Shown in pieces: positions 57,730-61,167 of a stretch of 64,000 nucleotides of DNA. A program made the position numbers and the translations under genes. The stretch is from Gemmobacter caeruleus (GTDB lineage Bacteria; Pseudomonadota; Alphaproteobacteria; Rhodobacterales; Rhodobacteraceae), in assembly GCF_008271655.1 (NCBI RefSeq), contig NZ_VKKX01000052.1, positions 124,001-188,000 on the forward strand. Reading direction: 5' to 3'. Every line of letters begins with the position of its first letter. Positions within the stretch are counted from its first letter, which is position 1. The notes below the pieces were generated by a model. The model did not search any database. It saw only the letters and a program-made list of their open reading frames with translations, and was not told the origin of the DNA.

Positions 57730-59469
57730 ATGATCGACAGCCAGACAGGAAAACGCCTTGCCATGACCGCGACCGGCGCGGCGGCGGGCCTGTCCTTCTT
57801 TCTGCTGGGGCAGGTGCTGGAGCGCGAGATGCTGGGCGAACGCGCGGCCATGGCGCTCATGGTGCTGGCGGTCGTGTTCTTCACCGCCCTTCTGGGCATG
57901 GCGGGGCCGCTGCGACTGGGTCGGGCGGCGGCGCTGGCGGCGGGGCAGGCGGTGGCGGTCGCTGCGCTGCTGTTCTGGGGCAGCTTCCGCTACGGGGCGC
58001 TGTCGGATTTCTTCAATACGCCGGTGCCGTTTCTGGCGGCTTTCGTGCTGGTCTTCGTGCCCATGCCCTTTCTGGTCGCCGCCGCGACAAGGGGCTGGCG
58101 CGATTACCCGACCCTGTTCAACGAAGCCTGGACCATCGTGATCCGCTATGCCGCGGCCTGGCTCTTTGTCGGGCTGGTCTGGGCGGTGCTGTTCGTGTCG
58201 GACCTGCTGTTGCGCATGGTGGGCGTGCCGGTGATCGCGCATCTGATGGAACAGCCGCTGTTCGGCTTTGTCCTCAGCGGGGCGATGCTGGGCCTTGGCA
58301 TCGCGGTGGTGGACGAGATGGCGGATGTCGTCTCGCCCTATCTGGTGCTGCGGCTGCTGCGGCTGTTGCTGGTGCCGGTGGTGCTGGTGGTGGCGGTCTT
58401 TCTGCTGGTGCTGCCGCTGCGCGGTCTGGACCGGCTGTTTGGCCAGCTTTCGGCGGCGGCCACGCTTTTGAGCATCGCGGCGCTTGGCGCCACGCTGGTC
58501 ACCGCCGCGCTGGACCAGTCGGAGGAGGAGGCGACGCGCTCCGTTCCGGTGCGGGCGGCGGCGCGGCTCATGGCGGCGCTGATCCTGGCGCCGGCGGGGC
58601 TGGGGGCCTGGGCGGTCTGGCTGCGCGTGCAACAATATGGCTGGACGCCCGACCGCGTCTTTGCCGGCTGCGTGGCGGCACTCGGGCTGGGCTATGGCGT
58701 GCTGTATCTGGCGGCGGTGCTGCGCGGGCGCGGCTGGGAGGCGCGGCTGCGGCGCGCCAATATCCATATGGCGCTGGCGTTGCTGGCGCTGGCGGTGCTG
58801 ATCTTCACGCCGCTTCTCAGCCCCGAAGGGATCGCCGCGCGCAGCCAACTCGCGCGCTATGAGGCGGGCCGGGTGACGGCGGCGCGGCTCGATCTGGCGG
58901 GGCTGGAGGATTGGGGCAGGCCGGGTGCCGCTGCGCTGGCGCGGCTGGCCACGCTGGCCGAGGCCCCGGGCCAGGAGGCGTTGCGCGCCCGTCTCGCCGA
59001 TCGCAGCCAGCAGGCCGAGGTCGCCGGCCGCGATGCCGAAAGCCTGCGTGCGGAACTGGCGGCGCTGATGCCGCTGCGCCCCGCGACCGAAACCGCGCTG
59101 CGCGACACCATCCTGGCCAGCCGGCAGGATTACGAATTGCAGGACTGGCTGTCGGCCTGCCGGCGCAGCCTGCCCGGCGGCCAGCCCGCCTGCGTGATGC
59201 TGGTCGCGGATTTCTGGGCCGATCTGCAGGGGTCAGAGGTCGCGGTGCTGACCCTGTCGGAGGATCAATGGCTTGCCGGTGCCGGCTTTGTGCTGCGTGA
59301 TGCCTTGTGGGAATGGCGCGAATTGCGCCCGTCGGGCGAGGCGATGCCGCGCGGCGCGGCGGCCGAGATCCTGTTGCAGGAACTGCTCGCGGCCCCGGCG
59401 CCGCAGTTGGTGCCGCTGCCGGGGCAGATGATCCCGGCGCAGGGCGGCGGGCTGATCCTGATGCGCTGA
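57730..59469 (+). CDS. DUF4153 integral membrane protein
   Basis: A 579-residue protein. Residues ~10-385 hold about eleven hydrophobic segments in the arrangement of DUF4153. The PTLFNEAWTIVIRYAAAWLFVGLVW region near 133-158 and the LRVQQYGWTPDRVFAGCVA stretch near 298-316 are typical of the family. The C-terminal ~190 residues are soluble, rich in Ala/Leu/Arg and partly helical, with two cysteines in SACRRSLPGGQPACVM. The function is unknown. The Shine-Dalgarno GCGGAAGGCGGA precedes the ATG. It lies between the SIMPL gene and the H-NOX-like gene and may be a single-gene unit. Confidence 0.88.
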   Translation: MIDSQTGKRLAMTATGAAAGLSFFLLGQVLEREMLGERAAMALMVLAVVFFTALLGMAGPLRLGRAAALAAGQAVAVAALLFWGSFRYGALSDFFNTPVPFLAAFVLVFVPMPFLVAAATRGWRDYPTLFNEAWTIVIRYAAAWLFVGLVWAVLFVSDLLLRMVGVPVIAHLMEQPLFGFVLSGAMLGLGIAVVDEMADVVSPYLVLRLLRLLLVPVVLVVAVFLLVLPLRGLDRLFGQLSAAATLLSIAALGATLVTAALDQSEEEATRSVPVRAAARLMAALILAPAGLGAWAVWLRVQQYGWTPDRVFAGCVAALGLGYGVLYLAAVLRGRGWEARLRRANIHMALALLALAVLIFTPLLSPEGIAARSQLARYEAGRVTAARLDLAGLEDWGRPGAAALARLATLAEAPGQEALRARLADRSQQAEVAGRDAESLRAELAALMPLRPATETALRDTILASRQDYELQDWLSACRRSLPGGQPACVMLVADFWADLQGSEVAVLTLSEDQWLAGAGFVLRDALWEWRELRPSGEAMPRGAAAEILLQELLAAPAPQLVPLPGQMIPAQGGGLILMR

Positions 59470-59533: not shown

Positions 59534-60136
59534 ATGCACGGACTCATCAACCGTTCGATCCAGTGCTTTCTGCGCGATACCTATGGCGCGGGATGCTGGG
59601 CCGATGTCGCCCGGCAGGCCCGGTTGGGATTCGACAGTTTCGAACCCATGCTGAGCTATGATGACGCGCTGACCGATGCGGTGCTGGATGTGGCCTCGGC
59701 CCGGCTGGGGCGGCCCCGCGATACGGTGCTGGAGGATCTGGGGATCTACCTCGTCTCGCATCCCAATGTGCAAAGGCTGCGCCGGCTCTTGCGGTTCGGC
59801 GGTGTGGGCTATGCCGATTTCCTGCATTCGCTGGAGGATCTGCCCGGTCGCGCCCGGCTGGCACTGCCCGATGTCGATCTGCCGCAACTGGAACTGACCG
59901 ACCATTCCGCAACCGAATTCACGCTGGTCTGCCGCTCGGGCCTGCGTGGGGCGGGGCATGTCGTGGCGGGTATCCTGCGGGCCATGGCCGATGATTACGG
60001 CGCGCTGTCGCTGGTGGAACATCGCGGCGTGGCACCCGGCAGCACCGGGGGCGAGGTGATCGGCATCACGCTGGCCGAAACCGCCTTTACCCCGGGCCGC
60101 CGTTTCGATCTCGCATTGGAAAGCGGGGCATCGTGA
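59534..60136 (+). CDS. H-NOX (heme NO-binding domain)-like protein lacking the proximal histidine
   Basis: A 200-residue protein with the H-NOX fold signature, starting MHGLINRSIQCFLRDTYG. The block FLHSLEDLPGRARLAL (residues 96-111) aligns without gaps to the region that carries the proximal heme histidine in guanylate cyclase beta1 (FLQNLDALHDHL...), but P104 occupies the histidine position. The downstream YxSxR heme-carboxylate motif is also altered: C133-R-S135-G-L137. H98 is the only nearby histidine. So heme binding in the classical manner is doubtful. The gene overlaps an HNOBA-GGDEF gene, its expected partner. GGGGG precedes the ATG. Alignment was done by eye. Confidence 0.87.
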   Translation: MHGLINRSIQCFLRDTYGAGCWADVARQARLGFDSFEPMLSYDDALTDAVLDVASARLGRPRDTVLEDLGIYLVSHPNVQRLRRLLRFGGVGYADFLHSLEDLPGRARLALPDVDLPQLELTDHSATEFTLVCRSGLRGAGHVVAGILRAMADDYGALSLVEHRGVAPGSTGGEVIGITLAETAFTPGRRFDLALESGAS

Positions 60137-61167
60137 TGCTGCATATGACCCCGCCTGCGGGCATGATCGGGGCCTTCGGCCTGCCGCAGGCCGCGCTTGA
60201 TACGCTGATGCCCATGCATCTGGTGCTGGACATGCAGGGAACCGTCCTCGGATGCGGACCCACATTGGCCAAGCTTTTTGACGATGGGGCGGTCACCGGG
60301 CAGCAGTTTTTCGACCTGTTCGAACTGCGCCGCCCCTCGGGGGTGACTGATCTGCCCGGGTTGCTGGCGCGGGCGGGTGCGCGGCTCTACCTCGTGCCGC
60401 GCGGCCAGCCGGGCCGGGTGCTGCGCGGGGTCTCCATGCCGCTGGCGGGCGGGCAGGGGCTGGTGCTGAACCTGTCCTTCGGCATCGGCCTGGTGGAGGC
60501 CGTGCGCGATCACGGTCTGACAGATGCCGATTTCGCCGCCACCGATCTGGCGATCGAGCTGCTTTATGTGGTCGAGGCCAAATCCGCGGTGATGGAGGAA
60601 TTGCGCGGTCTGAACCTGCGGCTGCAAGGCGCGAAATCCGCGGCCGAGGAACAGGCGATGACCGACACGCTGACCGGCCTGCGCAACCGCCGTGCGCTGG
60701 ATCTGATGTTGGGGCAGGTGATGGCGGGGCCGGGCAGTCTGGGGCTGATGCATCTCGATCTCGATTATTTCAAGGCCGTGAACGACACGCTGGGCCATGC
60801 CGCCGGGGATGAGGTGCTGCGCGTCGTCGCCCGGGTGCTGACCGAGGAGACCCGCGCCGGGGATACCGTGGCGCGGGTGGGCGGCGATGAATTCGTGTTG
60901 CTGCTGCCCGGCGTGGGCGATCCCGCCCGGATGCGCCAGATCGCGCAGCGCATCATCGCGCGTCTGACCGAACCGATTCCGTTTGAGGGTACCTTTTGCC
61001 GCATCGCGGCCTCGGCAGGGTTCACCCTGTCGATCACCCATCCGCGCCCGGCGGCCGCGACCTTGCTCAACCATGCCGATCAGGCGCTCTATCGGGCCAA
61101 GCGCGCCGGGCGCGGGCGCGTCATGCAGTTCGAGCCAGGGGCGGACGATCCCGACGGCGTGGCATGA
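60136..61167 (+). CDS. Diguanylate cyclase with N-terminal HNOBA-like domain
   Basis: A 343-residue signalling protein. Residues ~22-150 resemble the H-NOX-associated (HNOBA) PAS-like domain of soluble guanylate cyclase: PMHLVLDMQGTVLGCGPTLAKL, FFDLFELRRPSG, RGVSMPL, and LTDADFAATDLAIELL. A short helical linker (~150-175) leads to a GGDEF domain (~176-335) with the intact active-site motif GGDEF (249-253) and an inhibitory I-site RAGD (240-243). It should make cyclic di-GMP and be feedback-inhibited. The ATG at 60136 overlaps the H-NOX-like stop; a GTG at 60133 is the alternative. Control by the upstream protein is inferred. Confidence 0.9.
   Translation: MLHMTPPAGMIGAFGLPQAALDTLMPMHLVLDMQGTVLGCGPTLAKLFDDGAVTGQQFFDLFELRRPSGVTDLPGLLARAGARLYLVPRGQPGRVLRGVSMPLAGGQGLVLNLSFGIGLVEAVRDHGLTDADFAATDLAIELLYVVEAKSAVMEELRGLNLRLQGAKSAAEEQAMTDTLTGLRNRRALDLMLGQVMAGPGSLGLMHLDLDYFKAVNDTLGHAAGDEVLRVVARVLTEETRAGDTVARVGGDEFVLLLPGVGDPARMRQIAQRIIARLTEPIPFEGTFCRIAASAGFTLSITHPRPAAATLLNHADQALYRAKRAGRGRVMQFEPGADDPDGVA

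Follow-up and report, generated by a model that had tools for sequence, protein, structure and literature searches.

In the window, i.e. the whole stretch of 64,000 nucleotides analysed from contig NZ_VKKX01000052.1 of Gemmobacter caeruleus (Rhodobacteraceae), the gene at 59534–60136 codes for an H-NOX protein that has Pro104 in place of the heme-ligating proximal histidine, no longer has the YxSxR motif, and directly overlaps a gene for a GGDEF-type diguanylate cyclase. The protein belongs to the already published H-NOX group 5, and on balance it is best regarded as a pseudo-H-NOX which has kept the fold, has lost canonical sensing of nitric oxide (NO) through heme, and would act in trans as a regulatory subunit of the adjacent cyclase. 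The features concerned are the following.

59534..60136, + strand: gene of the pseudo-H-NOX, with HNOB fold and P104 where the proximal His would be; open reading frame, profile match, Alr2278 alignment and model
59810..59863, + strand: proximal helix (alpha F equivalent), codons 93–110; secondary structure of the AlphaFold2 model
59825..59827, + strand: H98 codon, proposed substitute ligand, unsupported; comparison with the genus, the relatives and Paracoccus denitrificans
59843..59845, + strand: P104 codon, replacing the heme-ligating His; alignment to H105 of Alr2278, 137/161 relatives
59930..59944, + strand: codons 133–137, C-R-S-G-L instead of Y-x-S-x-R; Alr2278 alignment
60133..61167, + strand: partner diguanylate cyclase with HNOBA/PAS-like domain, coiled coil and GGDEF; profile matches and model, 4-base overlap GTGA

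The reading frame opens with an ATG, and its product of 200 amino acids is a member of the HNOB/H-NOX family by its match to the Pfam profile HNOB (PF07700; 69.7 bits, cut-off 25.5), the only HNOB match in the G. caeruleus genome. Residues 1–153 match the structurally solved H-NOX protein Alr2278 of Nostoc (E = 1.4e-13), and residues 1–154 the beta1 subunit of soluble guanylate cyclase (sGC; best E = 9.7e-7, taken from match rows and not from a residue-by-residue alignment). The AlphaFold2 model (mean predicted local distance difference test, pLDDT, of 94.0) resembles the H-NOX fold of Alr2278 and sGC beta1 over about 180 residues in a structure comparison of the predicted fold, and residues 93–110 form a single helix in it, the proximal helix, with P104 inside. 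With respect to the heme site, the alignment to Alr2278 runs without gaps over residues 32–153 and places P104 opposite H105, and C133, S135 and L137 opposite Y134, S136 and R138, so that YxSxR reads CxSxL; neither the proximal His on helix F nor the YxSxR motif, by which a canonical heme-binding H-NOX is recognised, is thus present. The first-pass annotation, which was made from the DNA letters, had assigned both sites in this way and had supposed that the signalling fold is retained; the two assignments are borne out by the gap-free alignment, and the fold by the profile match and the confident, albeit predicted, model. As judged from the sequence, it is rather probable that the protein carries no stoichiometric heme, a heme-free, or else heme-poor, state being the likeliest reading.

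That P104 is not a chance substitution is evident from its distribution, because Pro is found here in all 11 copies from the genus Gemmobacter and in 137 of 161 distinct relatives; the conserved class that the same annotation had envisaged does therefore exist. His is found in 8 of the relatives, and the 16 that have neither Pro nor His carry Q, R or A (three each), N or S (two each) or E, T or K (one each). The set of 161 combines alignment A1 (Pro in 73/90, His in 7/90) with 80 loci from named genomes, the best 80 of at least 559 relatives and thus biased to near kin; A1 leaves out four places that had been fetched twice (L047, L048, L049 and L052) and the interrupted copy L044, and L001 enters it as P0001. 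The full YxSxR is missing from 89/89 group-5 operons, His keepers included. Group 5 was defined by Lee-Lopez & Yukl in 2022 as having the proximal His in less than 10% of its members and mostly Pro instead, with which the 8/161 found here agree, and was described in the consulted parts of that paper as having no conserved Cys, as keeping its Gly hinges and as posing an open question with regard to the sensed signal (PMC8738867). The assignment of the Gemmobacter protein to this group is based on P104, on its resemblance to the P. denitrificans H-NOX and on its GGDEF neighbour, and not on a rerun of the published similarity network.

Within the family, HNOB matches occur in at least 183 of the 246 genomes sampled, with two per genome in at least 21 of them, and group 5 makes up 80 of the 106 distinct places fetched, a selection that leans to better HNOB scores. 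In four of the 11 genus genomes there is a second, high-scoring HNOB protein that possesses both His and YxSxR and is encoded close to a histidine-kinase motif. A class-wide search gave matches in 7/289 genomes, three of which (L212, L213 and L214) are His-bearing and lie outside group 5; these outgroup proteins possess both the proximal His and YxSxR. Among single loci, L040 (1495–2037, + strand) belongs to the canonical clade and has Gln at the proximal-His site, an intact YxSxR and a histidine-kinase motif nearby, and is thus a separate His loss outside group 5, and L044 (G249:C24:241161-241622, - strand) is a His-type group-5 copy broken by an in-frame TAA. L140 and L141 of Cereibacter johrii are equally similar gene copies on two contigs of one assembly; to judge by the contig names, the assembly is more likely duplicated than the gene.

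The partner cyclase starts within the last four bases of the H-NOX gene (GTGA). It matches GGDEF with 140 bits and HNOBA with 24.6 bits, barely above the cut-off of 23.4, and its model (mean pLDDT 93.6) comprises a PAS-like part (residues 19–116), a long helix (139–175) and then the GGDEF domain; the VIA structure rows for the cyclase are taken up by GGDEF and thus list no match between the PAS-like part and the sGC PAS domain. H-NOX, HNOBA/PAS, coiled coil and output accordingly follow each other in order across the two overlapping genes, and since this is the domain order of sGC, the layout is like that of an sGC cut after its H-NOX domain. Conservation of this layout is considerable: a GGDEF-type reading frame of more than 280 amino acids comes next in 89/90 group-5 loci, the sole miss being truncated by a contig end, and of these neighbours, found with a motif script that demanded GG[DE][DE]F, all 89 have the spelling GGDEF and 87 an inhibitory RxxD site. 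The start codon sits exactly at the 4-base overlap in 55/89 operons, and HNOBA is detected at E <= 0.01 in 74/89 partner cyclases. By a simple motif search in short flanks, the canonical-clade loci of the same family (n = 30) have a same-strand histidine-kinase motif in 25 cases, a GGDEF motif in two and neither in three. It is very probable that the group-5 H-NOX regulates the adjacent cyclase, one of four GGDEF matches in all in the G. caeruleus genome.

With respect to other neighbours, the His- and YxSxR-bearing H-NOX L212 (1501–2001, + strand), from the same family, adjoins an HNOBA-like GGDEF protein which, with an apparent start of an EAL domain when read by eye, is probably a GGDEF-EAL protein; this locus likely pictures the ancestral layout. 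The neighbours of L213 and L214, also read by eye, are HNOBA-like histidine kinases. Upstream of the H-NOX gene the window encodes a DUF4153 protein (57730–59469, + strand), which was rejected as an obligate part of the system, a homologue being near only 33 of the 75 group-5 loci of at least 5 kb.

The H-NOX gene itself is maintained by selection, as the median ratio of nonsynonymous to synonymous substitutions (dN/dS) is 0.22 (range 0.14–0.305, from 36 pairs among 9 of the 11 genus copies, some pairs having dS >1). A tree of 89 group-5 operons and one outgroup, from which, as from alignment A3, L009 was excluded for having no complete cyclase in its contig, is poorly resolved. Its best topology has seven changes between His and non-His, and since neither a single His loss (approximately unbiased (AU) test, p = 0.406) nor one clade of His keepers (AU p = 0.353) is rejected on it, repeated loss of His is not claimed.

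Two published systems bear directly on these proteins. Kumar & Spiro reported in 2017 that the H-NOX proteins of P. denitrificans and Rhodobacter sphaeroides are without the proximal His, and that P. denitrificans hnoX overlaps a GGDEF gene and an hnoX mutant makes less biofilm; they infer that H-NOX inhibits DgcA (PMC5588039). The copy on the 1.73 Mb replicon of strain HAMBI_2443, apparently the counterpart of Pden_3719, has P104, E98, V11 and A133, and its GGDEF gene likewise begins within the last four bases of the H-NOX gene; the Gemmobacter protein is 34% identical to it over 97% of the query. The H-NOX of Dinoroseobacter shibae has been reported to inhibit Dgc1 in its NO-bound form (PMC7232146 and PMC8846402, both citing Bedrunka 2018). 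Genome G040 is D. shibae, as a piece of 4,001 bases is 100% identical to the corresponding coordinates of NC_009955.1 (strain DFL 12), two further D. shibae records matching equally well, and its sole HNOB match among those listed, L046 (3404–3985, - strand), is a group-5 member with His at 104 and C-W-R instead of YxSxR. If this is the protein that was studied, the reported NO biochemistry was obtained with a His keeper, and the result should therefore not be carried over to the Pro-type proteins. In the searches made of the open-access literature no earlier mention of this caveat was found.

As to what might replace the lost ligand, the first-pass annotation had proposed H98, six residues before P104 on the same helix and presumably on a different face of it. 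This residue is present in 5/8 His keepers and 114/153 non-His proteins (Fisher p = 0.43), is Gln in 3/11 genus members and Glu in a P. denitrificans copy, so that it was rejected as a replacement ligand; more generally, none of H2, C11, H98, C133 and H142 is associated with the loss of His at 104 in the 161 relatives. The annotation had also allowed for sensing of membrane state, to which none of the observations made here points, and for redox sensing. A thiol-based redox or metal sensor with C133 and C11 as its active residues could in principle draw on the presence of both cysteines in 11/11 genus members, and of C133 in 115/161 and C11 in 83/161 relatives, as well as on the response of the H-NOX proteins of Vibrio cholerae and Caulobacter to Cys oxidation (PMC12329717). 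However, neither Cys is universal, the two do not co-occur above expectation (Fisher p = 0.39), no third Cys column of at least 25% exists among the columns present in the Gemmobacter protein, and the two remaining columns do not make up a Zn/3-Cys site (three Cys and a His/Gln) of the V. cholerae type, as judged by counting Cys columns and not by an alignment to the published site. This explanation is thus very improbable. P. denitrificans, for which mutant phenotypes have been published, has a copy without H98, C11 and C133 and therefore none of these candidates. As a general answer to what group 5 senses, H98 and the cysteines are ruled out, and among the sequences compared the published statement of no conserved Cys holds in the sense that none is universal.

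According to the reading favoured here, canonical sensing through a His-bound five-coordinate heme would have been lost with the H-NOX fold retained, and the pseudo-H-NOX would bind and control in trans the HNOBA-coiled coil-GGDEF cyclase of the overlapping next gene, an arrangement which would correspond to an sGC that is severed behind H-NOX and in which GGDEF takes the place of the cyclase. Because the His-iron tether is missing, the proximal helix might rest permanently in a His-released, NO-bound-like conformation, and the pseudo-H-NOX might therefore restrain its cyclase by default, the input being the amount of protein or a non-heme ligand. This locked state is a tentative proposal by analogy with sGC beta H105C, a heme-less variant that is like the activated enzyme both structurally and in its activity (PMC8196705); an action on the cyclase independent of NO would fit the biofilm phenotype of P. 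denitrificans. In its widest form, the proposal would be that a very common rhodobacterial lineage gave up gas sensing and that its H-NOX became the constitutively His-released regulatory subunit in a diguanylate cyclase of split, sGC-like build. It would thereby parallel in nature the sGC H105 mutant, which is heme-free and activated, and the rebuilt 104/135 site would be inert or have a new ligand; such a scenario is speculative.

Several observations weigh against this reading. The locked state is an argument from analogy, and the parts of the literature consulted contain no measurement of heme in a Pro-type protein. The Pro-type proteins conserve apolar positions of the fold (n = 137: L73 in 136, L85 in 136, L103 in 134, P117 in 136 and G146 in 137), and a heme still in place, or another ligand, would fit this pattern. 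Kumar & Spiro still assign NO a role via the P. denitrificans H-NOX (PMC5588039), and the D. shibae protein is reported as active in the NO-bound form, though its His is kept. For the 15/89 partners without an HNOBA match the analogy with sGC is weaker, and the slightly better Z scores of the model to some NO-state sGC chains are within or near the tie margin and prove nothing.

The conservation of these apolar positions and of P117 could be taken to mean that heme is still bound without a proximal His, whether through a different residue, through an exogenous ligand or at a weak site, and that NO or redox state is sensed by it. In line with this, the P. denitrificans authors put H-NOX in an NO pathway (PMC5588039), and strong cytochrome cd1 (nirS-type) matches in the G. 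caeruleus genome (C23, about 183796–192007) imply that the organism probably makes NO. However, the loss of YxSxR from all operons, the lack of any candidate residue that tracks the loss of His, and the heme-free state of sGC beta H105C (PMC8196705) render a retained heme unlikely. Alternatively, the former heme cavity might hold another small apolar ligand that toggles the same hinge and cyclase; the purifying selection, the invariance of G70, G90 and G146 together with the apolar positions, and the Gly hinges kept in group 5 (PMC8738867) would all agree with this. As if the site had been rebuilt, position 135, where YxSxR has its Ser, carries an aromatic residue or His in 15/24 non-Pro versus 14/137 Pro proteins (Fisher 8.6e-8, the strongest of 336 tests and uncorrected for the tree). 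This covariation in the alignment is suggestive only, as the link is unsecured on the tree, where five independent pairs cannot reach 0.05, and ranks 62/17955 by mutual information with average product correction (MI-APC), and as 4/6 proteins with neither Pro nor His at 104, from the 80 nearest loci of named genomes, have a small residue at 135; moreover, no ligand is known and the apolar conservation may be mere core packing, so that a new ligand appears distinctly improbable. Finally, ten different residues at position 104 across the group and the stop-interrupted copy L044 might point to a decaying gene without function, but the presence of HNOB in most genomes of the family, the prevalence of group 5 among the places fetched, the low dN/dS and the mutant phenotype of P. 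denitrificans (PMC5588039) have already largely refuted this explanation, which has hardly any likelihood left.

With respect to the NO context, no match to a copper nitrite reductase is found in the G. caeruleus genome, and two FIST-domain proteins, NosP-like candidates (C54, 31475–32059, and C34, 228264–228842), are possible other NO sensors. Members of group 5, a large and already described group encoded beside an enzyme that makes cyclic di-guanosine monophosphate (c-di-GMP), can carry the annotation 'heme NO-binding'. To the published description are added here the exclusion of H98 and the cysteines as general answers, the caveat on D. shibae, the split-sGC layout and the segregation of partners within the family, canonical H-NOX proteins being mostly found by histidine kinases and those of group 5 by a GGDEF cyclase, mostly with HNOBA. 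As natural His- and Pro-type members occur within one operon family, the question of sensing is directly testable.

Amongst the known systems, HnoX/DgcA of P. denitrificans shares with the Gemmobacter pair and with group 5 the HNOB fold, Pro for the proximal His and the overlapping GGDEF gene; H98, C11 and C133 are found in the Gemmobacter protein but not in the P. denitrificans copy, which is no real difference in kind. H-NOX/Dgc1 of D. shibae belongs to the same group and has the same operon with a GGDEF cyclase, and likewise is without YxSxR, but differs by His at 104. Nostoc Alr2278 and sGC beta1 are alike in the predicted fold, but have both the proximal His and YxSxR, whereas the Gemmobacter protein has neither. 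The H-NOX domain of sGC alpha, with the same fold, is a heme-free pseudo-H-NOX in which His (human) or YxSxR (moth) is missing (PMC8196705); it is, however, part of a fusion and is occluded by an extension at its N-terminus, whereas the Gemmobacter protein is separate and begins at the first residue of the fold.
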